From a virus: 24,141 bases of DNA. Both the position numbers and the translations under genes were made by a program. Shown one piece after another: positions 1,200 through 20,553 of this stretch. The stretch is taken from the IMG/VR virus record IMGVR_UViG_3300014493_000026, positions 1 to 24,141 of that record, one strand, 5' to 3'. The notes under the pieces are model-generated. The model searched no databases, had not been told where the DNA came from, and saw only the letters and a list, made by a program, of their open reading frames with translations. Each line of letters opens with the position of its first letter. Position 1 is the stretch's first letter.

Positions 1200-2057
1200 T
1201 TAAACTAACGCTGGGTAAGCAGTATTAGAAACCCCAGTCCAACTAACTACAGATACAGATACAGCATCACCAGACACAGATACCAAGTAATCGATTTCAG
1301 GTTTGGAAGAACCAACGCCAGCAATAACTTGAATGTATTGTGTTTGAGCAACACCCGCAGTAACACCTGTGATAGTCGGTAATCCACCAGTAGCCGTACT
1401 TCCTGTAGGTCTGAATTGAACAATGTCATTAGCAGCCAATGGAGTGAAGGTTACGAGTAAGGTCACGATGATGTTTTGTAACGTCGTTGTTGGAACAGCA
1501 CTGTTAGTGGTCAAATCGATTGCAGTAAATGAAGTCGCATTACCACCAGACAACACAGATACAGGAGGTTGTTCAATGTATTGCAATGCAAATCTCATGT
1601 TCTGAGGTTTAGATGTAGCGTACACGAATGTAGAGCTACCACCTGTAGCTTGGAAACCAAGCAAGCGATAAGAGTCATAACCCAATGGCAGTTTTGGCAA
1701 CACATTGCTGGTCAACGTCAATATACCTGCGACAGGCAAATAACCACGTGAATCACCAATTAGGTAGACTGCGTATTGAGTAGAAGCAGCTAAAGCACCT
1801 GCGTCTATACCATTAGCACCAACAACAGCAGCATTAATTAAAAGCCCTGGTTGATAACCTTGGAATTGAACAGCGGGAACACTATTACCTTGCAAATTGG
1901 GGAAACCAACAGGCATGTCTATCATGTCGTTACTGTCGCGTGCTTGACCTGGAGCAATTGCTAATACGGTGGTAGAAGCAATAGAGATATTCAAGCCACT
2001 AATGTATAGGTAGGGCAATGAATAAATCGGATCATTCTGAACTTGTGGAGTTGGCAT
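1200..2057 (-). CDS. Virion structural protein, probable head decoration or fibre-like protein
   Basis: 285 residues, AAGGA 7 bases before ATG 2057. The sequence is low in charge and rich in Val, Thr, Gly, Ala and Ser, as expected for beta-sheet virion surface proteins. Residues about 75-140 hold a pattern seen in many phage virion and fibre-stem proteins: a 'G(I/L)D.GALAASTQYAVYLIGD' stretch followed by 'LPLGYDSYRLLGF'. The C-terminal 110 residues look like a separate beta-sandwich. The gene lies between coat and adaptor, where podoviruses often carry decoration or head-fibre genes. The exact role is not known. Confidence 0.6.
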   Translation of the reverse strand: MPTPQVQNDPIYSLPYLYISGLNISIASTTVLAIAPGQARDSNDMIDMPVGFPNLQGNSVPAVQFQGYQPGLLINAAVVGANGIDAGALAASTQYAVYLIGDSRGYLPVAGILTLTSNVLPKLPLGYDSYRLLGFQATGGSSTFVYATSKPQNMRFALQYIEQPPVSVLSGGNATSFTAIDLTTNSAVPTTTLQNIIVTLLVTFTPLAANDIVQFRPTGSTATGGLPTITGVTAGVAQTQYIQVIAGVGSSKPEIDYLVSVSGDAVSVSVVSWTGVSNTAYPALV

Positions 2058-2086
2058 TTTAATGTCCTTACTAAAACGTTTATAAG

Positions 2087-2113: not shown

Positions 2114-3430
2114 TTAACCTTGTGATAACGGTATGACATAACGCATGGAGTACTCGGGAACAATTACTGAACCGTGAGTCTCGTCGTAGATCATGCCTGT
2201 CTCGTTTTGACCAAACAGAGAACCGTAAGTCAAACGCATTGACACGCCTGTATCTTCGTCATATTCGTTTGCAGTGTCGTAAGGACGTTGTTCTGGCAAC
2301 TGAGGCATTGCTAAGTAGAACGCATCCCCACCTAAGATACCGCCCGCTCTGTGAGAAGGAATACCAAGGATTTGCATACCTGTTGCAATTGGATTGTTCA
2401 GGTTTTGGTTTTGTCCGCCAGCCCAATTCAACGCAGGGAAGATGTTCAATACAACATTACCAGAAGCATTCGCAGCCGCATCAGCAGTTACACGGAACTG
2501 AACTTGGTTGGCACTAGGGAAGTGACCAATGAAGGTTAAGTAACGCATGTTAGGTTGACCAGAAACGCCGTCTTGGAAGCTGAACAAGTCACCAGAGAAC
2601 ACCGCAGAAGCATCACTTGCAGTAGCGCCGCTCACAGTGATTTGAGTAACGTTTTGTCCTGTTGGATCGTTAGTGCTGATTACAGTCAATGTTTGCTGTA
2701 ATACGCCAGTATTACCTGATACGTGGATAGGCATTAAGTTTGACTGGTAGTAACTAACTAAAGGAGTACCGAAATCCCCAATTTCCCATGACATAGCGAT
2801 ATCATCGTTACGATGTGGTACGAATTGGTTAAGACCATTACCCACAACAGCAGGAACAACTGTATCAGGAAGATAAACCTTGATTCCCTCAGCTACAGAG
2901 CCGTAGTTCTTGAAGAACATAATGGCTTGCGCTAATTGTTGGTAAGAAGTCAAAGCAGTAGAACCATTACCGAAATATCGATAGGGTCCACTAAATGTAT
3001 TTAAGGAACCGTCTAACTGGCTGCGTACAGAGCTATCCCAGTTCTTAGCAACATTACCCTCTACTTGGGTTGCCAATTCAGCGATGAATGACTTACCAAA
3101 TACACGCATATAATCTTCTTCGCCTTTTTCCAAGTTGAAGATACGTTGTTGAGAAGTAACAGCAAATGAACTGTTGTTTGCCTGGTCGCACACGAGTTGT
3201 TGAACACGTTGAACGGCTGGTTGGAATGATGCTACCAAACCTGCAACAGTAGTCGCACGTGGTGGTAAATCAAACGTAACAGCAGAGCCAAGGTTCGCTT
3301 GTATCTTGTCGAAGTCTTTGAATTTGGTATTAGCCGTAGCAATGTGACAGCATAAATTCTGTAACAGTGCCAATCCTGACCGTTGATAGGTCTGGACGGT
3401 TTGTAAAATGTTATTCGGGAAAACAGCCAT
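2114..3430 (-). CDS. Major capsid (coat) protein, P22 gp5-like
   Basis: 438 residues, close to P22 gp5 (430). The N-terminal half is the shell fold, with EKGEEDYMRVFGKSFIAELA in the long-helix region. Residues about 245-300 (VTQITVSGATASDASAVFSG, then DLFSFQDGV) match the position and style of the inserted telokin-like I-domain of P22 coat. The C-terminus has a strongly conserved block (IPSHRAGGILGGDAFYLAMP through YSMRYVIPL). It builds the T=7-type procapsid with the scaffold encoded just upstream. Translation starts at ATG 3430 with AGGAG held inside a hairpin (3440-3466). Confidence 0.88.
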   Translation of the reverse strand: MAVFPNNILQTVQTYQRSGLALLQNLCCHIATANTKFKDFDKIQANLGSAVTFDLPPRATTVAGLVASFQPAVQRVQQLVCDQANNSSFAVTSQQRIFNLEKGEEDYMRVFGKSFIAELATQVEGNVAKNWDSSVRSQLDGSLNTFSGPYRYFGNGSTALTSYQQLAQAIMFFKNYGSVAEGIKVYLPDTVVPAVVGNGLNQFVPHRNDDIAMSWEIGDFGTPLVSYYQSNLMPIHVSGNTGVLQQTLTVISTNDPTGQNVTQITVSGATASDASAVFSGDLFSFQDGVSGQPNMRYLTFIGHFPSANQVQFRVTADAAANASGNVVLNIFPALNWAGGQNQNLNNPIATGMQILGIPSHRAGGILGGDAFYLAMPQLPEQRPYDTANEYDEDTGVSMRLTYGSLFGQNETGMIYDETHGSVIVPEYSMRYVIPLSQG

Positions 3431-3439
3431 GTTAGTAAC

Positions 3440-3466
3440 TCCTAACTTTCATCCATTAAGTTAGGA
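3440..3466 (-). promoter_or_regulatory. Hairpin covering the coat-gene ribosome binding site
   Basis: In the leftward mRNA a perfect 9-bp stem, TCCTAACTT / AAGTTAGGA with a 9-base loop, has the AGGA of the coat Shine-Dalgarno sequence in its 3' arm; the coat ATG follows 9 bases later. This can delay or tune coat translation, or couple it to ribosomes leaving the scaffold gene. The structure is clear from the sequence; the regulatory role is inferred. Confidence 0.6.
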
Positions 3467-3487
3467 CTCAGGATTTACCTTCGGCGT

Positions 3488-4189
3488 TTATGCGCGATAC
3501 TTTGCTTTAAGATCACGCATCGACAGAGTATTACCTGAATCCGTTCCGGTATTAGAAGGTCGTTGCTGTGATAATGGTGTTCTGGCATGGGTCATCTGTG
3601 AGTGCGTTTCATTTGCCTTTATTGAATCTGACAAACGCTTAATCTCATAGATTGCGTCTTGAGGATTGTGCTGACATGTTGATTCTAGCTGATACAGTTT
3701 CGATCTGTTCTTCGCCAGGTCATACAACACATCATGAGAGTTATCAACGTATTCGGCTAAAAGCTGTACAACGTTAGGATAGTATCTCATGTCCACATTA
3801 TTTGTGACGGCCTCAAAATCTTCATATTTCTCTTTACCAGCGGAAATCTTCTCTTTGTAGCTATTCACTATGCGCTCTGCTGCTTCGGCATTCATGCGTT
3901 CTTGGCTCTCACGAGTCCATTCTTCACGATACCTATTCAGCTCTTCGCCAGTTAATCGCTTAACATCATCTTCTGATAATGCTTTAGAAGACGGAGCTTG
4001 ACTGTATTGTTGTGCTGGCTGTTGTGTCTGCTGTTGTTGGCGTTTATAGCTTTCAACGGCGTCATGCTTGGCTCGCCCTACAATTTCGTTTAACTCTGCT
4101 TGCTTAAACAAACGTTCTTGTGTCTGTTGAGCAGTCTCTACTGGTGCCTGAGTCATATCAGACGCGTTGTCCATAACACTGTTATCCAT
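3488..4189 (-). CDS. Capsid scaffolding protein
   Basis: 233 residues, highly polar and helical. It has a Gln-rich low-complexity stretch (RQQQQTQQPAQQYSQ, about residues 49-63), a charged coiled-coil-like middle (LTGEELNRYREEWTRESQER), and a short basic tail ending DLKAKYRA. P22-type scaffolds have exactly such extended helical bodies and a basic coat-binding C-terminus, though P22 gp8 is longer (303). It lies directly upstream of coat, the usual order. AGAAGGA precedes ATG 4189 by 5 bases; a second ATG five codons in is also possible. It assembles inside procapsids and leaves before DNA packaging. Confidence 0.8.
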   Translation of the reverse strand: MDNSVMDNASDMTQAPVETAQQTQERLFKQAELNEIVGRAKHDAVESYKRQQQQTQQPAQQYSQAPSSKALSEDDVKRLTGEELNRYREEWTRESQERMNAEAAERIVNSYKEKISAGKEKYEDFEAVTNNVDMRYYPNVVQLLAEYVDNSHDVLYDLAKNRSKLYQLESTCQHNPQDAIYEIKRLSDSIKANETHSQMTHARTPLSQQRPSNTGTDSGNTLSMRDLKAKYRA

Positions 4190-4494
4190 AACATTCCTTC
4201 TAGCTATTGCCCCGCTACGGTAATACCTCTGCCTTACGAACAGGTCTCGGATTATTACGCCATCACGCTAAAAAACATTCCCCAACTAACGCATGGGTCT
4301 CGTGTGTGAAGTTGCAGTCCATTGCACCTTTTGCGATTTCACATGTTCAATGTAGTCAATTTAAGGGGTATTGGAAACGCGGCGTATGAGCCGGTATGAA
4401 AGAATATGAAGCGGTAGTAAAATAATGTACTTATATAAAGTGAATAAATGAAATATGATGTTTTAGAGAAATGTAAACTTAATTAAGGATAATT
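4190..4494. other. 305-bp non-coding interval between scaffold and the AlpA-like gene
   Basis: No gene is supported here. One structure stands out: GTGAAGTTGCA (4306-4316) pairs with TGCGATTTCAC (4332-4342) as an 11-bp stem. Its two non-Watson-Crick positions are G.U pairs only if the RNA is read from the plus strand; on the minus strand they become A/C mismatches. The right part (4400-4494) is very AT-rich and holds AAGGA before ATG 4495. No convincing sigma70 promoter was found on either strand, although the scaffold/coat genes follow a likely terminator at 4692-4726. Confidence 0.5.
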
Positions 4495-4689
4495 ATGCTT
4501 ATATTAGATGGAGTCAAATATCTAGTAGAAAAAGAGTTGTCAGTTAAATATGGGTTATCAGTCCATTGGTTTAGAAAAGCGCGATATGATGGGAAAAGCC
4601 CGCAATATCATAAATTAAATGGGAAGGTTTATTATACTGAGGAAAATGTAGATAGATGGTTCAAAGATAATCTAAAGACAATGCAATAA
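4495..4689 (+). CDS. AlpA/excisionase-like small helix-turn-helix DNA-binding protein
   Basis: 64 residues with AAGGA 7 bases before ATG. The sequence fits the MerR-like winged HTH of the AlpA/HTH_17 group: KELSVKYGLSVHWFRKARYD is the HTH, followed by the 'SPQYHKLNGKVYYTEENVDRWF' wing pattern, here split at the loop. Such proteins act as excisionases or transcription regulators. It is a plus-strand gene alone among leftward virion genes, convergent with the gene at 4743, so it is probably transcribed in lysogeny or independently of late genes. Whether it directs excision, plasmid control or gene silencing cannot be told from sequence. Confidence 0.75.
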   Translation: MLILDGVKYLVEKELSVKYGLSVHWFRKARYDGKSPQYHKLNGKVYYTEENVDRWFKDNLKTMQ

Positions 4690-4742: not shown

Positions 4743-5756
4743 TTAGAGCACGCTATATCCAAGTAACAATGTTCCGTTCAGCGCTGTAGCTGCGGTGTTA
4801 TTGAATATGGTTAGCGTTGCTGTGCCTGAACCTGGAACACAGGTAAAGGTAATATTGTTGGTTGCATTATTCGTGCCACCTTGGATAGTTAGGCCAATTA
4901 CAGATGTAGCCGTAATTTTGGTATTAGTCCAAGTAATTACATAAGTCGCCCCACCTGCTGTAGTCAGTGAAGATGTAGTAATTACCCCAGCATTACCACT
5001 AGCAGTCACCGCGTTAGCAGCTTCCGTGCCATTGGCTTTTGCAAGGATGATTTGACCAGCACCAGAGAACGTATTAGCAGCAGTTAGATTAGCAAACGAA
5101 CCAGGAGCGGCGCCAGAGTCTACAAATAAGCCACCCGTACCGGAAGCAATCGGGAAGTTACCAGATACGAACGGTGTCGCAGTGGCACCAACCATAAATC
5201 GAGCAGCAGCATTCACTGGATCAGGAATACTCACAACCGAGGCTTGACCCATGGCTACGTTACTAACAGTGGTATTAGTATTTCCTGTGTTCGCAACACC
5301 TGCAACAATTAACGACCCACAAGCCGCAGTAGCAGGAAATGAGGCTAAGGTTCCAGCAGTACCCGATAATCCAGCCTGAATGTTTCCACCATGAACGGCA
5401 GGTGCGCTTCCATCATAAATTTGGCCAGTAGTTCCATTAAATTGTGCGATATGGTTCGCAACAACAGGAAGCAACACATCGCCAGGGCTAACTGCCGCAA
5501 CCAATGTTATTACGCCACTGGTGCTAATGCTTACGGTAAACACACCATAAGTACCAACCTGGGTCACGTTATTGAACGAGTACAGTACTTGTAATACGTC
5601 AGTACTTGATAATGGATTAGATTCAAGACTAACCTGATTCAAATAACCTGCGGTCGTAATGGTTGCAAGATTATCACCAAATACAGCGAACTTCTGGTTA
5701 GGGAACACGCCCACCATTGCTGGCTGTTGAATGGGCAATTGATAAATAGTGGGCAT
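4743..5756 (-). CDS. Virion protein, probable head-fibre or capsid-associated beta protein
   Basis: 337 residues, almost free of Lys, Arg and Glu and rich in Thr, Ala, Gly, Val and Asn, typical of beta-structured virion surface proteins. The N-terminus (QQPAMVGVFPNQKFAVFGDN then LATITTAGYLN and SSTDVLQVLY) resembles a conserved opening seen in hypothetical phage structural proteins encoded near head genes. The C-terminus is a run of short beta repeats ending in LLLGYSVL. AAGGA lies 10 bases from ATG 5756. Located between the tiny-gene cluster and scaffold. Role in the particle is inferred. Confidence 0.6.
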   Translation of the reverse strand: MPTIYQLPIQQPAMVGVFPNQKFAVFGDNLATITTAGYLNQVSLESNPLSSTDVLQVLYSFNNVTQVGTYGVFTVSISTSGVITLVAAVSPGDVLLPVVANHIAQFNGTTGQIYDGSAPAVHGGNIQAGLSGTAGTLASFPATAACGSLIVAGVANTGNTNTTVSNVAMGQASVVSIPDPVNAAARFMVGATATPFVSGNFPIASGTGGLFVDSGAAPGSFANLTAANTFSGAGQIILAKANGTEAANAVTASGNAGVITTSSLTTAGGATYVITWTNTKITATSVIGLTIQGGTNNATNNITFTCVPGSGTATLTIFNNTAATALNGTLLLGYSVL

Positions 5757-5774
5757 GATATTATATCCTTATAA

Positions 5775-5969
5775 TTATGCTTTTCGTGGAGTTAGTGAAT
5801 CGCCGCGTTTCCAATTGGATTGACTAGGTATGTCCATACCCATCTTTCCATTATGACCTTTAACATCATTACGGTCAGTTTTACGTTGTAATACGCGCTC
5901 AATACCACCTTGGTGATTGTCGTTAACCTTACGGTTGTCAATCATACCTTCTTTGCATTTGTAGTCCAT
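5775..5969 (-). CDS. Small basic hypothetical protein
   Basis: 64 residues, hydrophilic and rich in Lys, Arg, Asn, Asp and Gly; starts MDYKCKEGMID and ends SLTPRKA. AAGGA precedes ATG 5969 by 8 bases in a TATAAGGATATAA context almost identical to that of the following gene (5756), suggesting duplicated leader sequence. No recognised domain. Probably disordered and possibly virion-internal given its neighbours. Confidence 0.6.
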   Translation of the reverse strand: MDYKCKEGMIDNRKVNDNHQGGIERVLQRKTDRNDVKGHNGKMGMDIPSQSNWKRGDSLTPRKA

Positions 5970-7582: not shown

Positions 7583-7787
7583 TTTCTTCCTTCTCCTGTA
7601 GTGTTTTTTGTAGAAACGTAATCATCTGCTTAATACCGTCTTCCTCTATGATTGTTCCTGGAAAAGGAACTGTTTGTGGAAACCCTTCTATACAATGAAA
7701 TGCTAAGGTTTCAGTAGTACTTCCAAATACAATTCCCCATTTATCATTGCCGAAATCTTTACCAATTTTCACTAATAACTTACGCAT
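7560..7787 (-). CDS. Small hypothetical protein downstream of portal
   Basis: 75 residues. The first 50 form a mixed alpha/beta segment (LVKIGKDFGNDKWGIVFGST ... FHCIEGFPQTVPFPG), then a Glu-rich helix (LQKTLQEKEENEQ). The start codon lies within the last codons of the portal gene, overlapping by 8 bases, so translation is coupled to portal. No family recognised. Confidence 0.65.
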   Translation of the reverse strand: MRKLLVKIGKDFGNDKWGIVFGSTTETLAFHCIEGFPQTVPFPGTIIEEDGIKQMITFLQKTLQEKEENEQSIME

Positions 7788-9876
7788 GCGCTCTACCGCC
7801 GTCCTGTTTATTATGTAGTTTGTGGTGAGTTTCTAGTGCTTCTTTAACATGCCGATGACTCATATCACGGTGCTTCATTTCTAAATCAACATGCTTGGCG
7901 TAACGCTCAGTTTGTGCTTTGACTAGCTGTACGGTTGCGGCTTGTTGACCTAAATGCAGGTCAGCCATAACTTTTTGCTGGTCTTGTTGGAGCTTCGCCA
8001 TATCTAATTGCAATTTCGCTTGGTCTATTTGGCCTTTTTGTTGAACTTTAGCCATATCTACTTGTGCTTTCATTGCGGCTGGATTTTGCTGCGCTTGTTG
8101 CTGGGCTGCTTGTTTTTCTTGCTGGTATTCTTTCAACCACTCATCCGTTAAGTCTTTAAGCTGCTCAATGCCTTTACCTTCCATATTGTCTAGCACGAAG
8201 TTTAATCCCTTCTCTGCTATGAATTGTCCAAATAATGGCGACATACCCATCATTTCTTTGACCATCATGATTGTGCGTTGTTTTTGTACTTGGAAACTAG
8301 CGCCAGCTTTGAGTGATACATTCAGCGCGTTAGTGTCGAAGTCCATAGGTAGACCTTCGGGTTGATTGATTTTGACAAAGTGCCTCTTTCCACGCTCATC
8401 TAGGATTGGCAATGTTCGTGGAGTAGTGAAGTACTTAGGCATCAAGTTTACATATATTTCAGCAACACGCTGGAATCCCTGTAAGCAGCCGATAATATAG
8501 GGCATAGCAGTCGCATTGGACTGGGTAGCAGCCTCAACTATTGCCACACCTGATAATTGGTTGTTGTTAATACCTAAGCTTGCATCGTATGAACCTAGCA
8601 CGTTCTGAATTAGAGAATCAGCCCCCGTAAAAGCTTGCGCAATTTCAGGAGGACACGGAACCCGCTGAATTTCGCGGATTGGATTAGCAATTGGCATGTC
8701 AGGATTGGATTCGTGTACAGAATTATAAACAAGCACAGACTCTTTCTGTGTATTTTTGTAAGCATCGAGAAACCCTTCCTCTTTAGGTAAAGCCTCTTTT
8801 GCCACCATGAATTTATGCTGTACCGTATTCTCAATCTCATTTGCCAGAGAAATACCTGCGTAGTTTTTAAGCCTTTGCGCACCTTTAGCATGATATACAT
8901 AGGGTCTTGTCACCTGTCTGATATTACCGTTTTTAGGCGTCTTAATCATGAGCGAGTGGCCATCAATAAAGACGAGGGGTAAATGCGTAAAGTCTGTTTC
9001 TTCGTACTCTATAACTTGGTTTTCAATCATTCGATAACGGTTGATGCTGTCGATTAGGGTTTTACGTGGCTTACCCATAAGCGCTGGTGGCACAGTGATA
9101 TCATTCCACGTGTCCAACATTTTACGATATTTGGTCATGGTCATTACGGAACCGTCACGAACTTGGACGATTGTTTCTTCTTTGCGTTTTTTCTCGTAAT
9201 AGTCTGCTACTACAATTATTTTGCTGTTGTCGTTTAGGTATGACCAGTTAAAACCTGCGAAGTCTCTACGAAAGCTTAGTGTCTTTAGGGGTATTTCGGG
9301 ATATTCTTCTTCAAACTCGTCCTTATCTCTTGGGAATAGCTGGAAGCAGAATTGACCATCGCCTTTATGACTGAACCTTGCTAGCTTATCAAATCCTGAT
9401 AGGGTTGGTTCGCAACGTTCAATCTTAATGACTTGGTTCATCGACATGGGATGTTCATAATCAGTGAACACTTTGATAGTACTAAACCCACCGGATAATA
9501 GGTCTTTGTAAACCTCGTATCTGGTGTGCTCGTTATTATCGTCCATGAACACGTGCTTTAGATGTTGCTCGACAACCTTAATAGTGATAGGGTCGGCTTT
9601 GTCCTCATCATAAGCGTTAACCGCAATATCGGGTTCCTGCTTTGAAAACTCACCTAGAAGTCTGCTAATATAGGCTTCGAGTACGTTAAATTCGAGTTGC
9701 GGACGGTTCATTGTCATTAGAAGTGTGATTTCATCTTCTTTTAGGGAAGAGTCGAACACAAACCTACGAAACTCATTATAGCGATCATAGTTATCTTTAA
9801 AATAATCATGCGCATTGCGTACACGCTTTTTAATACGCGCAAGATCATCTTGATAGCGTTTTGCTACATCCTTCAT
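7780..9876 (-). CDS. Portal protein, P22 gp1-like
   Basis: 698 residues, near P22 gp1 (725). It has a strong ribosome site (AAGGAG, 8 bases from ATG 9876). The N-terminal half has the P22-portal layout: MNRPQLEFNVLEAYISRLLG, the long helical 'GG FSTIKVFTDYEHP' segment matching P22 'GVGAWRLVTDYEDQS', and 'KIIVVADYYEKKRKEE' matching the 'IQIAEFYE' strand. The last 120 residues are Gln- and Lys-rich heptads (QQAQQNPAAMKAQVDMAKVQ onward), like the C-terminal helical barrel of P22 portal. It forms the dodecameric ring at one head vertex, docks the terminase and later the adaptor. Confidence 0.88.
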   Translation of the reverse strand: MKDVAKRYQDDLARIKKRVRNAHDYFKDNYDRYNEFRRFVFDSSLKEDEITLLMTMNRPQLEFNVLEAYISRLLGEFSKQEPDIAVNAYDEDKADPITIKVVEQHLKHVFMDDNNEHTRYEVYKDLLSGGFSTIKVFTDYEHPMSMNQVIKIERCEPTLSGFDKLARFSHKGDGQFCFQLFPRDKDEFEEEYPEIPLKTLSFRRDFAGFNWSYLNDNSKIIVVADYYEKKRKEETIVQVRDGSVMTMTKYRKMLDTWNDITVPPALMGKPRKTLIDSINRYRMIENQVIEYEETDFTHLPLVFIDGHSLMIKTPKNGNIRQVTRPYVYHAKGAQRLKNYAGISLANEIENTVQHKFMVAKEALPKEEGFLDAYKNTQKESVLVYNSVHESNPDMPIANPIREIQRVPCPPEIAQAFTGADSLIQNVLGSYDASLGINNNQLSGVAIVEAATQSNATAMPYIIGCLQGFQRVAEIYVNLMPKYFTTPRTLPILDERGKRHFVKINQPEGLPMDFDTNALNVSLKAGASFQVQKQRTIMMVKEMMGMSPLFGQFIAEKGLNFVLDNMEGKGIEQLKDLTDEWLKEYQQEKQAAQQQAQQNPAAMKAQVDMAKVQQKGQIDQAKLQLDMAKLQQDQQKVMADLHLGQQAATVQLVKAQTERYAKHVDLEMKHRDMSHRHVKEALETHHKLHNKQDGGRAHA

Positions 9877-9916
9877 TATTGTAGCTCCTTGTAGAGAAAT
9901 CCTTTCCCTTCGATAA

Positions 9917-13624: not shown

Positions 13625-14257
13625 ATGATAATTTCAATACTAAATCAAAAAGGTGGCACAGGTAAGACAACTCTTGCAGTTAATATTGCTCGTGAATATA
13701 CGATACGTACCATCAAAACATTGCTGGTTGATTCGGATAGCCAAGGTTCCGCATTGCGATGGCACGAGGAATCAGGCGGTGAATTGATTGATTTAACTTG
13801 CCTTCCAGTTAATACCCTTGATAAAGATGTTGTTAAATTCAAAGACCGGTATGAGCGCATTATTATTGATGGCATTCCCCGAGTATCACCATTGACGGTT
13901 TGCGCTATTAAAGCCTCAAATGCTGTTCTCATCCCAGTTCAGCCATCACCTTATGACATTTGGGCTACTGAAGACTTGGTTCGGTTAGTCAAGGACAGAA
14001 TTGAAATCACTGAAGGAAAACTTAAGGCAGCATTTGTCATCAGTAGGCGCATTAAAGGCACCCTTATAGGTGATGAAATTGTGTCTCAACTTCAACAATT
14101 TGAGTTACCCATATTTTTAAATGGAACGTATCAACGCGTTGAATATGCCAAAGCAGTTCAACAAGGTAGAACTGTATGTGAACAAGACACCGAAGCAACA
14201 CGTGAAATTGTAAGCATCGTTAACGAACTAGAGGATTTTCTTCATGGCAAGAATTGA
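13625..14257 (+). CDS. parA: ParA-family partition ATPase (ParF-type, Ib)
   Basis: 210 residues. Deviant Walker A KGGTGKTT at residues 9-16, the signature of ParA/MinD ATPases; switch I region VDSDSQGSA (36-43; most relatives have DxDPQ, here Ser replaces Pro); Walker B-like RIIIDGIPR near 78-86. Lack of an N-terminal HTH and the short length place it with ParF-like type Ib proteins; the segments LIPVQPSPYDIWATEDLV and QRVEYAKAVQQGRTV fit ParF's VIPVTPSPLDFSAAG and QRQVYVKSILDGDSV. It would pull or position plasmid copies on the nucleoid together with the RHH protein encoded next, whose gene overlaps by 14 bases. Confidence 0.88.
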   Translation: MIISILNQKGGTGKTTLAVNIAREYTIRTIKTLLVDSDSQGSALRWHEESGGELIDLTCLPVNTLDKDVVKFKDRYERIIIDGIPRVSPLTVCAIKASNAVLIPVQPSPYDIWATEDLVRLVKDRIEITEGKLKAAFVISRRIKGTLIGDEIVSQLQQFELPIFLNGTYQRVEYAKAVQQGRTVCEQDTEATREIVSIVNELEDFLHGKN

Positions 14258-14613: not shown

Positions 14614-14688
14614 TGGCTCTCCGTGATGGGATCGAACCACCGACCAACAGCTTAACAGGCTGCGGCTCTGCCTCTGAGCTAACGGAGA
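14614..14688 (-). tRNA. tRNA-Asn (anticodon GUU)
   Basis: 75 nt including encoded CCA. Acceptor TCTCCGT pairs fully with ACGGAGA; D arm GCTC/GAGC with a short 7-base loop; anticodon stem GCAGC/GCTGT around loop CTGTTAA, anticodon GTT; T stem GGTGG/CCATC around TTCGATC; discriminator G, as in bacterial tRNA-Asn. All arms are intact, so it should be functional. It lies 6 bases past the end of the gene at 14695 and is likely cut from the leftward transcript. Confidence 0.95.
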
Positions 14689-18696: not shown

Positions 18697-19032
18697 CTAG
18701 TCTGGATAGGGAACGAATGGCGCACGGTATTTAATGCCTTCGTTCTCTACCGTTTGGGGTTTGAATGGTTTCTCACGCTTTAATCGCTTTTGTTCATCAG
18801 CGTAAGTTTCCGTTTTACCGTGTGCGTAATCAGGCATACCATTTTCAACCCAAACTTTTATATGACATTCTAACGACTCAATAGGCAAATCGCCGTGGCG
18901 CATATCGTTTTTATCATCCTCGCTTAGTAGCCTTGTAACTACCAAGTGAGGACGTACACAGAGTTTCTTGCAAAGGATATTGATTATCGATTTGCAATCA
19001 TCGTCGCTTAACAGGGGTGTTTGTTGTTCCAT
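18697..19032 (-). CDS. Hypothetical protein downstream of the P-like gene
   Basis: 111 residues (MEQQTPLLSDDDCKSIINIL ... PFKPQTVENEGIKYRAPFVP). The start lies inside the 3' end of the P-like gene, a 35-base overlap, so translation is coupled. The N-terminal 70 residues look helical and compact, the rest extended. It is the last gene of the leftward early operon and may be a replication or recombination accessory, by position only. Confidence 0.6.
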   Translation of the reverse strand: MEQQTPLLSDDDCKSIINILCKKLCVRPHLVVTRLLSEDDKNDMRHGDLPIESLECHIKVWVENGMPDYAHGKTETYADEQKRLKREKPFKPQTVENEGIKYRAPFVPYPD

Positions 19033-19729
19033 CCGGGTTAATCCCTAACATTTTTCGTATCTCAGGCATACATTGCTCATAGCCTACCAAGTGATCAAAA
19101 TCCTTTTTGATATCGTCTTGCTTTTTTAGCTCTTGGGTTTCCTCGTGCTTGTCTTCAATGCCTTTCGGTACTGGCTCAATCTTTCCGGCTAAGAAGTTCC
19201 GAAGGATGATTTCATAGTTCCGATAAAACACGGGTTGCGTTTTGGTTGCTGCGTTGTTGCGTAAGAAATAGCGATCAGATTCCTTTACGGCTAAGCCTAA
19301 CAGCATGTTTTGTTCGGCTGATAAGTCTTTCAAGTCACCATCACGCATATATTCAGCACTGCGGTTAAATGCTTGCTCCTTGGTAAGTAAGCCCAAGTCA
19401 TCCGGTGTTGATTCGTTCCATGCTAGGAATTCGCCTAACTGTGGTGGATTAGGGTATCTATGGCGTTCAAGCTTTAACAACGCTTTGCGGATATGGTCAA
19501 CGCTGCTGTAACCTTCCCGGGTAAATGTTGATTGCCATTGGGTTTTTTCCGCTAATAGTCGCTTAGGGTCAGCGTACAAAACATCTGTTCCACGACATAG
19601 CATATAAAACTTAGCAAAAACATATTCAACAAGCTTTGCTGATAAGGGGTCAATCGTTGTGTAGGTCTGCTTTTCTTCACGGGCTACAGACATATTGCCC
19701 ACTTTAATTAACTCGCCGATGTGTTTCAT
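18998..19729 (-). CDS. Lambda P-like replication protein (helicase loader)
   Basis: 243 residues (lambda P is 233). LAEKTQWQSTFTREGYSSVD 'HIRKALLKLERHRYPNPPQLGEFLAW' fits lambda P 'EIRRQWVLAFRENGITTMEQVNAGMRVARRQNRPFLPSPGQFVAW' in order and spacing (quoted in parts: 'RQWVLAFRENG', 'PFLPSPGQFVAW'). Such proteins deliver host DnaB to the origin bound by O. The C-terminal third is charged and less conserved. ATGA coupling with the O-like gene upstream. Together with the O-like protein and iterons this forms a lambda-type initiation module. Confidence 0.75.
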   Translation of the reverse strand: MKHIGELIKVGNMSVAREEKQTYTTIDPLSAKLVEYVFAKFYMLCRGTDVLYADPKRLLAEKTQWQSTFTREGYSSVDHIRKALLKLERHRYPNPPQLGEFLAWNESTPDDLGLLTKEQAFNRSAEYMRDGDLKDLSAEQNMLLGLAVKESDRYFLRNNAATKTQPVFYRNYEIILRNFLAGKIEPVPKGIEDKHEETQELKKQDDIKKDFDHLVGYEQCMPEIRKMLGINPDGTTNTPVKRR

Positions 19730-20553
19730 GCTACGTCACCAACAATTTCATCCCATGATTTGTATTTGGTCGATGGTCGATTAGTCGATACTTGGTTAAG
19801 GTGTATTTCGCCTTCCCATTCACGGCCATTGAGGTAAGTAGCTGGAAATGGAATCTTGCTTTTGTCTCTACCCTTCCAGTTGTTAGCAATGCGTGACTCA
19901 AGGTCTTGTACAAGCATGGCTACGAAGTCCGCATCTGGCTTGTGCTTTAAGAAAGCCTTGTGAGCTATGACGGGTTTTTGTTTATTGGGGTAGTTTTTAT
20001 AGAATTCCATGAAGAGAGAATCTTGTTTGTAATCCTTGGTCGTATTCGAAGAATCGACAATAGGTTTTAAATGAGAAGATTGTTGAAAAGAGTTATTGAT
20101 TATGTCGTCCACATCCTGGACTACCCCATCCACACCGTGGACTACCCCGTCCGTATCGTGGACTGGTGGTAAATCGACTTGTTCTTGTGGTTTTTCCGGT
20201 TCTGGTTCTGCTGGTTCTTTGGGTAGGAAGTAACCCATGTCTTGGGCTACGAGGTATAAGTTTTGATATCCGGGGTCTGCGCTTCTCGTAAGCAATCCAT
20301 GCGATTCAAGTTCGTTCAAGGCTTCAAAGCATCGACTACGACTTACTCGCGCCTTGTTACATAAGCATTTTATGTTCCGTTTTACTGGGGCTGCTTCGCT
20401 TCCATAGTCACCATCAAACCTTAAGGACATGTACACGGACAAGGCATGAGCTGATAACGCTTGATATATATTCTCGCGTATCATGATGTAACGGGATTGA
20501 ATAGGTTTTTGTGCGTAAGTTGAGTGTTCTTTGTTGTTCTTTTCATTAGTCAT
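19726..20553 (-). CDS. O-like replication initiator with winged-helix N-terminus
   Basis: 275 residues. N-terminal domain (about 25-105) is a winged helix: LSAHALSVYMSLRFDGDYGS, 'VKRNIKCLCNKARVSRSRCFEALNELESHGLL', as in phage replication initiators and DnaD-like proteins. A Pro/Glu-rich linker and three 7-residue repeats (HDTDGVV, HGVDGVV, QDVDDII; residues 132-152) follow, encoded by the iterons at 20107-20169. The C-terminal part (FMEFYKNYPNKQKPVIAHKA ... 'FPATYLNGREWEGEI') matches the common tail of such initiators. It should bind the iterons within its own gene and recruit the P-like loader. Inverted repeats upstream may control it. Confidence 0.8.
   Translation of the reverse strand: MTNEKNNKEHSTYAQKPIQSRYIMIRENIYQALSAHALSVYMSLRFDGDYGSEAAPVKRNIKCLCNKARVSRSRCFEALNELESHGLLTRSADPGYQNLYLVAQDMGYFLPKEPAEPEPEKPQEQVDLPPVHDTDGVVHGVDGVVQDVDDIINNSFQQSSHLKPIVDSSNTTKDYKQDSLFMEFYKNYPNKQKPVIAHKAFLKHKPDADFVAMLVQDLESRIANNWKGRDKSKIPFPATYLNGREWEGEIHLNQVSTNRPSTKYKSWDEIVGDVA
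20107..20169. repeat. Three 21-bp iterons inside the O-like gene: probable replication origin
   Basis: Units start at 20107, 20128 and 20149. Each has the form RTCCRY-AYC-STGGAC, an interrupted dyad, followed in the first two by TACCCC and in the third by TGGTGG. Lambda and relatives carry iterons with interrupted dyads in the middle of gene O, bound by the O protein. As in lambda, an A+T-rich stretch (about 20060-20106) lies on the side towards the 3' end of the gene and could be the unwinding element. The location is seen directly; origin activity is inferred. Confidence 0.7.

Follow-up and report, generated by a model that had tools for sequence, protein, structure and literature searches.

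A conserved hairpin over the coat-gene Shine-Dalgarno site of a phage family, probably an operator of the CsrA/RsmA type

The coat gene of the phage described here is preceded by a hairpin that pairs its Shine-Dalgarno (SD) sequence, and comparison across relatives reveals that this hairpin is a conserved RNA structure. Judged by its sequence, it is probably a translational operator of the CsrA/RsmA type, with about eight of its kind per record. The window (the whole stretch of DNA analysed) is a virus record of 24,141 bases, and its features are collected in Table 1. The portal protein of the window phage is of the P22 type (Pfam P22_portal). Among named phages, its coat relatives are remote: 16 records, from Vibrio and Shewanella phages, share 22-23% identity. 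A ParA-type partition ATPase, a tRNA-Asn gene and replication genes suggest that the phage may exist as a plasmid. For a clue to the host, plasmids were searched with the coat and replication proteins, with no matches, and ParA was considered and set aside as too widespread to help.

Table 1. Features of the window, with positions counted from its first base
Feature	Position	Strand	Remarks
Coat-leader hairpin	3440..3466	-	5' arm (anti-SD) 3466-3458; loop AATGGATGA 3457-3449; 3' arm with SD 3448-3440
Coat SD, AGGAG	3439..3443	-	All but the last G paired in the 9-bp stem; assigned from sequence
A-N-GGA-Y motif (AUGGAU), candidate CsrA/RsmA site	3451..3456	-	In the apical loop
Coat (major head) gene, 438 aa	2114..3430	-	phrog_283 major head protein, E 9.1e-10
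Scaffold gene	3488..4189	-	phrog_8865 head scaffolding protein, E 5.2e-7
Scaffold-start hairpin TGTTA[TGGA]TAACA	4180..4193	-	A of ATG is the A of A-N-GGA
Portal gene	7780..9876	-	Pfam P22_portal, E 1.1e-95
Portal-leader hairpin AGGGAA[AGGAT]TTCTCT	9893..9909	-	14 nt (GGA to GGA) above the portal SD
Gene downstream of coat	1200..2057	-	No PHROG match
Hairpin CGTTTTAGT[AAGGAC]ATTAAAATG	2055..2078	-	Before the post-coat gene; SD in loop, start codon in stem
Hairpin ATTATA[AGGA]TATAAT	5760..5775	-	SD in loop; before ORF 4743-5756
Hairpin TAATTA[AGGA]TAATTA	4480..4495	+	SD in loop; before 64-aa ORF 4495-4689 (+)
ParA-type partition ATPase	13625-14257	+	Pfam AAA_31/CbiA; about 50% identity to plasmid ParA
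tRNA-Asn gene	14614-14688	-	
Replication genes	18998-20553		

The coat-leader hairpin in the window and its relatives

Read on the minus strand, the hairpin is 5'-TCCTAACTT AATGGATGA AAGTTAGGA-3', with a perfect stem of 9 bp, a loop of 9 nt and a stability of -8.8 kcal/mol when folded alone; its 3' arm ends in the AGGA of the SD and is followed by G TTACTAAC ATG, where ATG is the coat start. A first-pass annotation had described such a stem before the coat gene, with the AGGA of the ribosome site in its 3' arm; both the stem and the enclosure of the SD are borne out, and they hold on the minus strand, the earlier description having named no strand. A perfect stem of at least nine pairs that includes the SD is found in one of the 61 SD-bearing leaders of the window, and shuffled sequences yield 0.0075 per window. 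A search of curated RNA families (Rfam-type, at gathering score) matched the window at one tRNA only, with no match at the leader, and an RNA-family search of the relatives L002, L006 and the csrA-bearing L018 returned tRNAs only. The coat protein had no match in Pfam.

Relatives were collected by four IMG/VR protein scans (the best 80 of each), one pattern scan and one GTDB scan, the last contributing four contigs of metagenome-assembled genomes (MAGs). Together these yielded 323 loci that include a coat start, although many overlap, being fragments of one and the same contig, and collapsing identical leaders left 107 distinct leaders of 60 nt. Five loci with leaders shorter than 60 nt were dropped, L104 lacked an anchor, L082 and L104 were too short for the tree, and L023 was excluded from the covariation test. 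A UCC is present within the tested span before the SD GGA in 92 of the 107 leaders (about 18% being expected by chance). The register of the stem was anchored on the UCC and the GGA, or chosen by best pairing where a leader had two UCCs or none, and the inner pairs 4-9 were tested for covariation against 300 simulations on the coat-gene tree in which each column changes independently. Covariation of these pairs is 2.14, with a null mean of 0.66 and a maximum of 1.12, so that none of the 300 simulations reaches it; double-change cells number 83 against a simulated maximum of 58, and the share of paired cells, 0.80, is matched in one simulation of 300. Repeating the test on the 79 tree rows with a single UCC, where no register is chosen, gives a covariation of 1.84 (maximum 1.53) and 51 double changes (maximum 39), with the paired share again matched in 1 of 300. 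Compensatory changes among relatives, which the first-pass annotation had named as a check on the stem, are thus found, and they exceed a tree-aware null.

The arms differ in sequence from leader to leader and the hairpin spans 18-32 nt, with pairing kept, G-U pairs and a G-A mismatch included, and the SD GGA begins 8-13 nt upstream of the coat start codon. An inverted repeat that acts as DNA, for example as an operator or a recombination site, would suit the perfectly palindromic arms seen in the window, but the variation of arm sequence and span under retained pairing and the placement of the SD relative to the start codon both tell against it, and of all the readings weighed here we find it the hardest to credit. 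At stem position 4, 48 of 104 leaders have the G-A mismatch and 42 have a T-A pair; the mismatch may keep the stability of the hairpin near a set value.

In ensemble predictions (from -75 to +15), 94 of 106 leaders form the described stem with a probability above 0.5. The loop GGA comes out unpaired in 57 of 58, the sole exception being the window. There, the described stem has a probability of 0.37 and the loop GGA is free with a probability of 0.38, the SD being paired with a probability above 0.99 in either fold. In the lowest-energy folds of longer stretches of the window (3410-3500 and 3380-3520), the SD is paired to a second UCC farther upstream, and the near UCC to the loop GGA. Such folds are what a two-state RNA switch would predict, in which the near UCC alternates between the SD and the loop GGA as its partner. 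However, two UCCs occur within the tested span in 12 of the 107 leaders, the loop GGA is predicted to be free in 57 of 58 leaders, and a switch of this kind does not need the invariant A that we describe below. We therefore consider a two-state switch extremely improbable.

The A-N-GGA motif in coat loops and at other gene starts

GGA occurs within the loop in 57 of 105 distinct coat leaders (shuffled loops: mean 9.2, maximum 19 in 2000 shuffles), beginning 10-14 nt before the SD GGA. The base two positions before it is A in all 57, with 0 parsimony steps on a tree of 105 coat genes, whereas the base between this A and the GGA changes at least 16 times on the tree. The base after the GGA may be T, C or A, with at least 18 changes on the tree, but is G in none of the 57. 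Published CsrA/RsmA motifs, as quoted in PMC7705225, include RUACARGGAUGU, AUGGAUG and CANGGAYG, and the window loop, AAUGGAUGA, has A-N-GGA and matches AUGGAUG exactly. At the level of sequence, the A-N-GGA of the coat loops is the CsrA/RsmA core motif.

The loop GGA is missing in the other 48 of the 105 leaders, most of which retain the stem, and the stem must therefore have a role that is independent of the loop GGA. This would be expected if the hairpin served simply to sequester the SD and so to tune or couple coat translation, being opened by the ribosome that finishes the scaffold gene and requiring no protein; the coat gene of single-stranded RNA phages is under such SD-hairpin control by coupling. 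In keeping with this, the SD is paired in 106 of 106 leaders, the stability of the hairpin is moderate (median -7.9 kcal/mol across 106 leaders), and the upstream long ORF ends a median of 14 nt before the hairpin in the 94 leaders with such an ORF (21 nt in the window, counted from the scaffold stop codon). That distance nevertheless ranges from 0 to 64 nt, and a plain hairpin leaves unexplained the invariant A of the loop motif, the loop-motif hairpins at the portal and other genes, and the absence of any excess of hairpins in csrA-bearing phages. We regard it as an unlikely explanation, albeit one to be taken seriously.

The first-pass annotation had suggested that the coat hairpin might control the ratio of scaffold to coat, by coupling or by protein binding. 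The SD is indeed hidden, and protein binding is the better of these two ideas, but a limit to the scaffold-to-coat ratio is not supported: A-N-GGA hairpins are also present before the portal gene, at the scaffold start, before the post-coat gene and at other genes (Table 1), which makes it likely that the regulator acts on many genes. Among 38 distinct portal leaders, 21 have an A-N-GGA hairpin with at least 5 Watson-Crick pairs (shuffle mean 0.6, maximum 4), and the A-N-GGA stems are dissimilar from one another (AGGGAA[AGGAT]TTCCCT, AGCAA[AGGAT]TTGCT, GAGAA[CGGAT]TTCTC and GCCAGAA[TGGA]TTCTGGT). For the post-coat gene, 4 of 98 leaders were removed as wrong starts; 21 of the remaining 94 have a second GGA 7-10 nt above the SD (shuffle mean 2.8, maximum 9), and this is A-N-GGA in 21 of 21. 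When A.GGA above SDs is counted with no hairpin requirement, there is only a small excess.

A genome scan placed these cases in a wider frame. It took in 51 viral records of at least 21 kb (43 without recognisable csrA and eight with csrA) and covered, at each SD-bearing ORF start, the stretch between 50 nt upstream and 12 nt downstream of the start codon; a hairpin was counted where at least 5 Watson-Crick pairs enclose A.GGA in a loop of 4-10 nt, and the null keeps every A.GGA and shuffles the rest. For six records longer than 40 kb, the scan ran as far as base 40,000; the L040 record includes a 38-base duplication from the joining of two pieces. In the 43 csrA-less records, an A-N-GGA hairpin is present at 340 of 2400 SD-bearing starts, with 38.1 expected, which amounts to a mean of 7.9 per record (range 0-14). 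The 340 hairpins are related by descent and comprise 276 distinct sequences. Four P22-like control phages have 3 hairpins, against 1.2 expected. In the window, 5 of 53 SD-bearing starts have an A-N-GGA hairpin, its own 9-nt coat loop falling outside the scanned loop shapes.

The same scan bears on the specificity of the motif. In csrA-less phages, 253 of 1091 SD-position copies of A.GGA lie in a hairpin loop, compared with 14 of 672 where C, G or T replaces the first A and 247 of 9363 for copies of A.GGA away from gene starts; if at least 6 pairs are demanded, the figures are 174 of 1091 with the first A and 1 of 672 with another base. The first A is thus decisive at the SD, as it is for CsrA. 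That the motif occupies the SD position in 253 of the 340 hairpins could mean that presenting an SD in a loop generally helps ribosomes to bind or stabilises the mRNA, with no regulator involved. Yet this would account neither for the rarity in loops of SDs in which C, G or T replaces the first A, nor for the low counts of SD-position A.GGA in loops among csrA-bearing relatives (7/156) and controls (0/42), nor for the coat leader, where the motif is apart from the SD and the SD is hidden, and such an aid is very improbable. For A.GGA copies that lie in a leader but elsewhere than at the SD, the number in hairpins is 99 of 749 in csrA-less phages, 3 of 114 in csrA-bearing phages and 3 of 26 in controls, where the last figure is close to the csrA-less rate and, being a small number, does not separate the groups. 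RegB of T4 cleaves at GGAG; a RegB-type cleavage site was considered and rejected, the base after GGA being G in 27 of the 340 hairpins and never in the coat loop.

Phage csrA and the number of hairpins

A search for the Pfam CsrA family took in 80 records, namely 76 viral records (many of them fragments) and four MAG genomes. Matches to csrA above the Pfam cut-off were found in 8 of the 76 viral records, two of which (L026 and L027) share one coat leader, and L159 and L031 gave weak or cut-off matches. Seven distinct complete phage CsrA sequences share arginine 6 and the stretch HR(E/K/G)E, both RNA-contacting features of CsrA proteins. The protein of the L159 record (L330) is a degenerate CsrA-like one at 22.8 bits, under the cut-off, with arginine 6 and HR(E/K/G)E both missing; the L159 genome retains 8 A-N-GGA hairpins. 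Near csrA, several relatives encode small proteins that begin, or nearly begin, with MNDFTKEE(L) (L331, L333, L328 and L327), and the portal frame of the csrA-bearing L018 contains one in-frame TGA (L376, G008:C1:37836-39953).

In the eight related records that carry csrA, A-N-GGA hairpins are present at 8 of 458 starts, with 6.6 expected, so there is no excess of sites in these relatives. Counted by record, there are at most 2 hairpins in every csrA-bearing record and at least 4 in 41 of the 43 csrA-less ones, the exceptions in the main scan being L314 (2 hairpins) and L011 (0; a 21-kb record). Four viral records longer than 20 kb were tested for csrA and lie outside the main scan; three of these, L193, L073 and L094, were covered by a later scan and have 2, 6 and 4 hairpins, respectively, and L151 was left out. 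That later scan, of twenty further records identified by their order among the loci, gives a mixed picture: L031, with its partial csrA, has 0 hairpins, L030 has 2, fourteen others have 1-6, and L044, L069, L078 and L081 have 0, with no csrA found in their fragments (records of 21 kb or less).

A rank test of csrA against hairpin number gives p = 2e-5 with kinship ignored. On the coat tree, however, csrA changes only three times, which leaves two to three independent contrasts, and with these no sign test can reach 0.05; in 191 of 200 tree pairings, both well-supported contrasts agree, few hairpins going with csrA. The csrA contrast is consequently strong in size and weak in the number of independent changes. 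Within the hairpin-rich clade, L066 has a divergent csrA and 2 hairpins, one of which is the coat hairpin with its motif, and the csrA-bearing L067 retains a portal hairpin, ATTGTT[ACGGAC]AACAAT. An association of the coat-loop GGA with csrA (Fisher p 0.045; 0.064 in records of at least 35 kb) has no support from the tree and was set aside as proof, since it is not tree-independent.

That so many hairpin-bearing phages have no recognisable csrA might also indicate that the A-N-GGA hairpins are read by a protein from outside the CsrA family, encoded by phage or host, and several proteins of the window have no assigned function. Against this, the fixed A, free N and GGA match CsrA/RsmA, we know of no other bacterial protein with A-N-GGA specificity, and such a reader would not account for the hairpin excess being missing just where csrA is present. 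A reader of another family is, in our estimation, distinctly unlikely.

A proposed mechanism and its known counterparts

From these observations, we infer that CsrA binds the hairpins and represses. In the coat leader, the upstream anti-SD pairs with the SD and the hairpin presents A-N-GGA in its loop; a dimer of the CsrA family would bind this loop, stabilise the closed hairpin and exclude ribosomes, as has been proposed for RsmA on psl. Other genes have the more usual CsrA layouts, in which the A-N-GGA loop either contains the SD or belongs to a hairpin a short way upstream of it, and there CsrA would cover the SD or start codon directly. Given that hairpins are present in phages with no recognisable csrA of their own, the CsrA is most likely made by the host, and once host CsrA is titrated or falls, the structural genes would be translated together. 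Relatives that carry csrA would have shed most of their sites, probably because their own CsrA would repress their own genes.

As to which host this may be, the CsrA of L018 shares 46-58% identity with plasmid CsrA proteins of several genera among the matches listed (15 of 205) and names no host. Coat genes at 82-88% identity (one at 68%) are present in MAGs named as Bacteroidetes, Parvularculaceae, Sulfuricurvum and a beta proteobacterium (L101-L104), but these look like viral contigs that were binned wrongly. Two of these four MAGs contain CsrA, though the MAGs are of unlike groups and their binning is doubtful.

Single-stranded RNA phages have a coat-gene initiator hairpin and a coat-protein operator, so that there, too, an SD-bearing hairpin controls translation in a phage. 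The present case differs in that it concerns a DNA phage with a P22-type portal, and in the conserved A-N-GGA of the loop, which recurs before many genes. The closest likeness is to the psl leader of Pseudomonas aeruginosa, described in PMC2984543 as a hairpin that pairs the SD with an anti-SD and has a GGA motif in its loop, 12 bases before the SD; binding of RsmA was shown, and RsmA was proposed to hold the hairpin closed. The coat leader has the same anatomy, with SD/anti-SD pairing at the base and GGA in the loop upstream of the SD. In contrast, the psl stem is large and imperfect and belongs to a cellular operon for a polysaccharide, whereas here a phage coat gene has a short stem that is perfect in the window, and for the coat leader the binding site is a candidate from sequence. 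PMC4066749 lists CsrA targets in which the SD is surrounded by several GGA sites; these resemble the portal, scaffold and other genes considered here, but in the phages the sites recur over about eight gene starts per record and are in no excess where the phage has its own csrA.

CsrA has been linked to phages before. Genes for csrA are reported in 30 of 2517 phage genomes in PMC7366521, where prophage activation under the control of CsrA in Serratia is cited as well; the corresponding number here is 8 of 76 viral records, and 82 of 50,697 named phage records match the CsrA of L018. That paper is drawn on here for the presence of csrA genes; the putative operators in phage mRNAs and their apparent inverse relation to csrA come from the present analysis. 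Searches of a paper library in which many subscription papers are missing turned up no CsrA-type operators described for the structural genes of phages.

The broader reading of our data is that, across the whole phage family, structural genes (coat, portal, scaffold and others, at about eight starts per record) are under host CsrA by way of A-N-GGA hairpins, that virion production awaits the Csr switch of the host, and that lineages which gain a csrA of their own erase nearly all operators. We hold this to be an even proposition. Abstracts on the subject describe CsrA/RsmA as a regulator that acts globally on growth state and virulence traits in many bacteria, and the role of phage csrA genes is left open in PMC7366521. 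If correct, the broader reading would give phages a direct reason to care about CsrA and would provide a natural experiment on virion production that reads host physiology, with the distinct hairpin sequences offering hundreds of evolved CsrA-type sites from which binding rules could be learned. Phage production in this family may thus be wired to a host-wide regulator.
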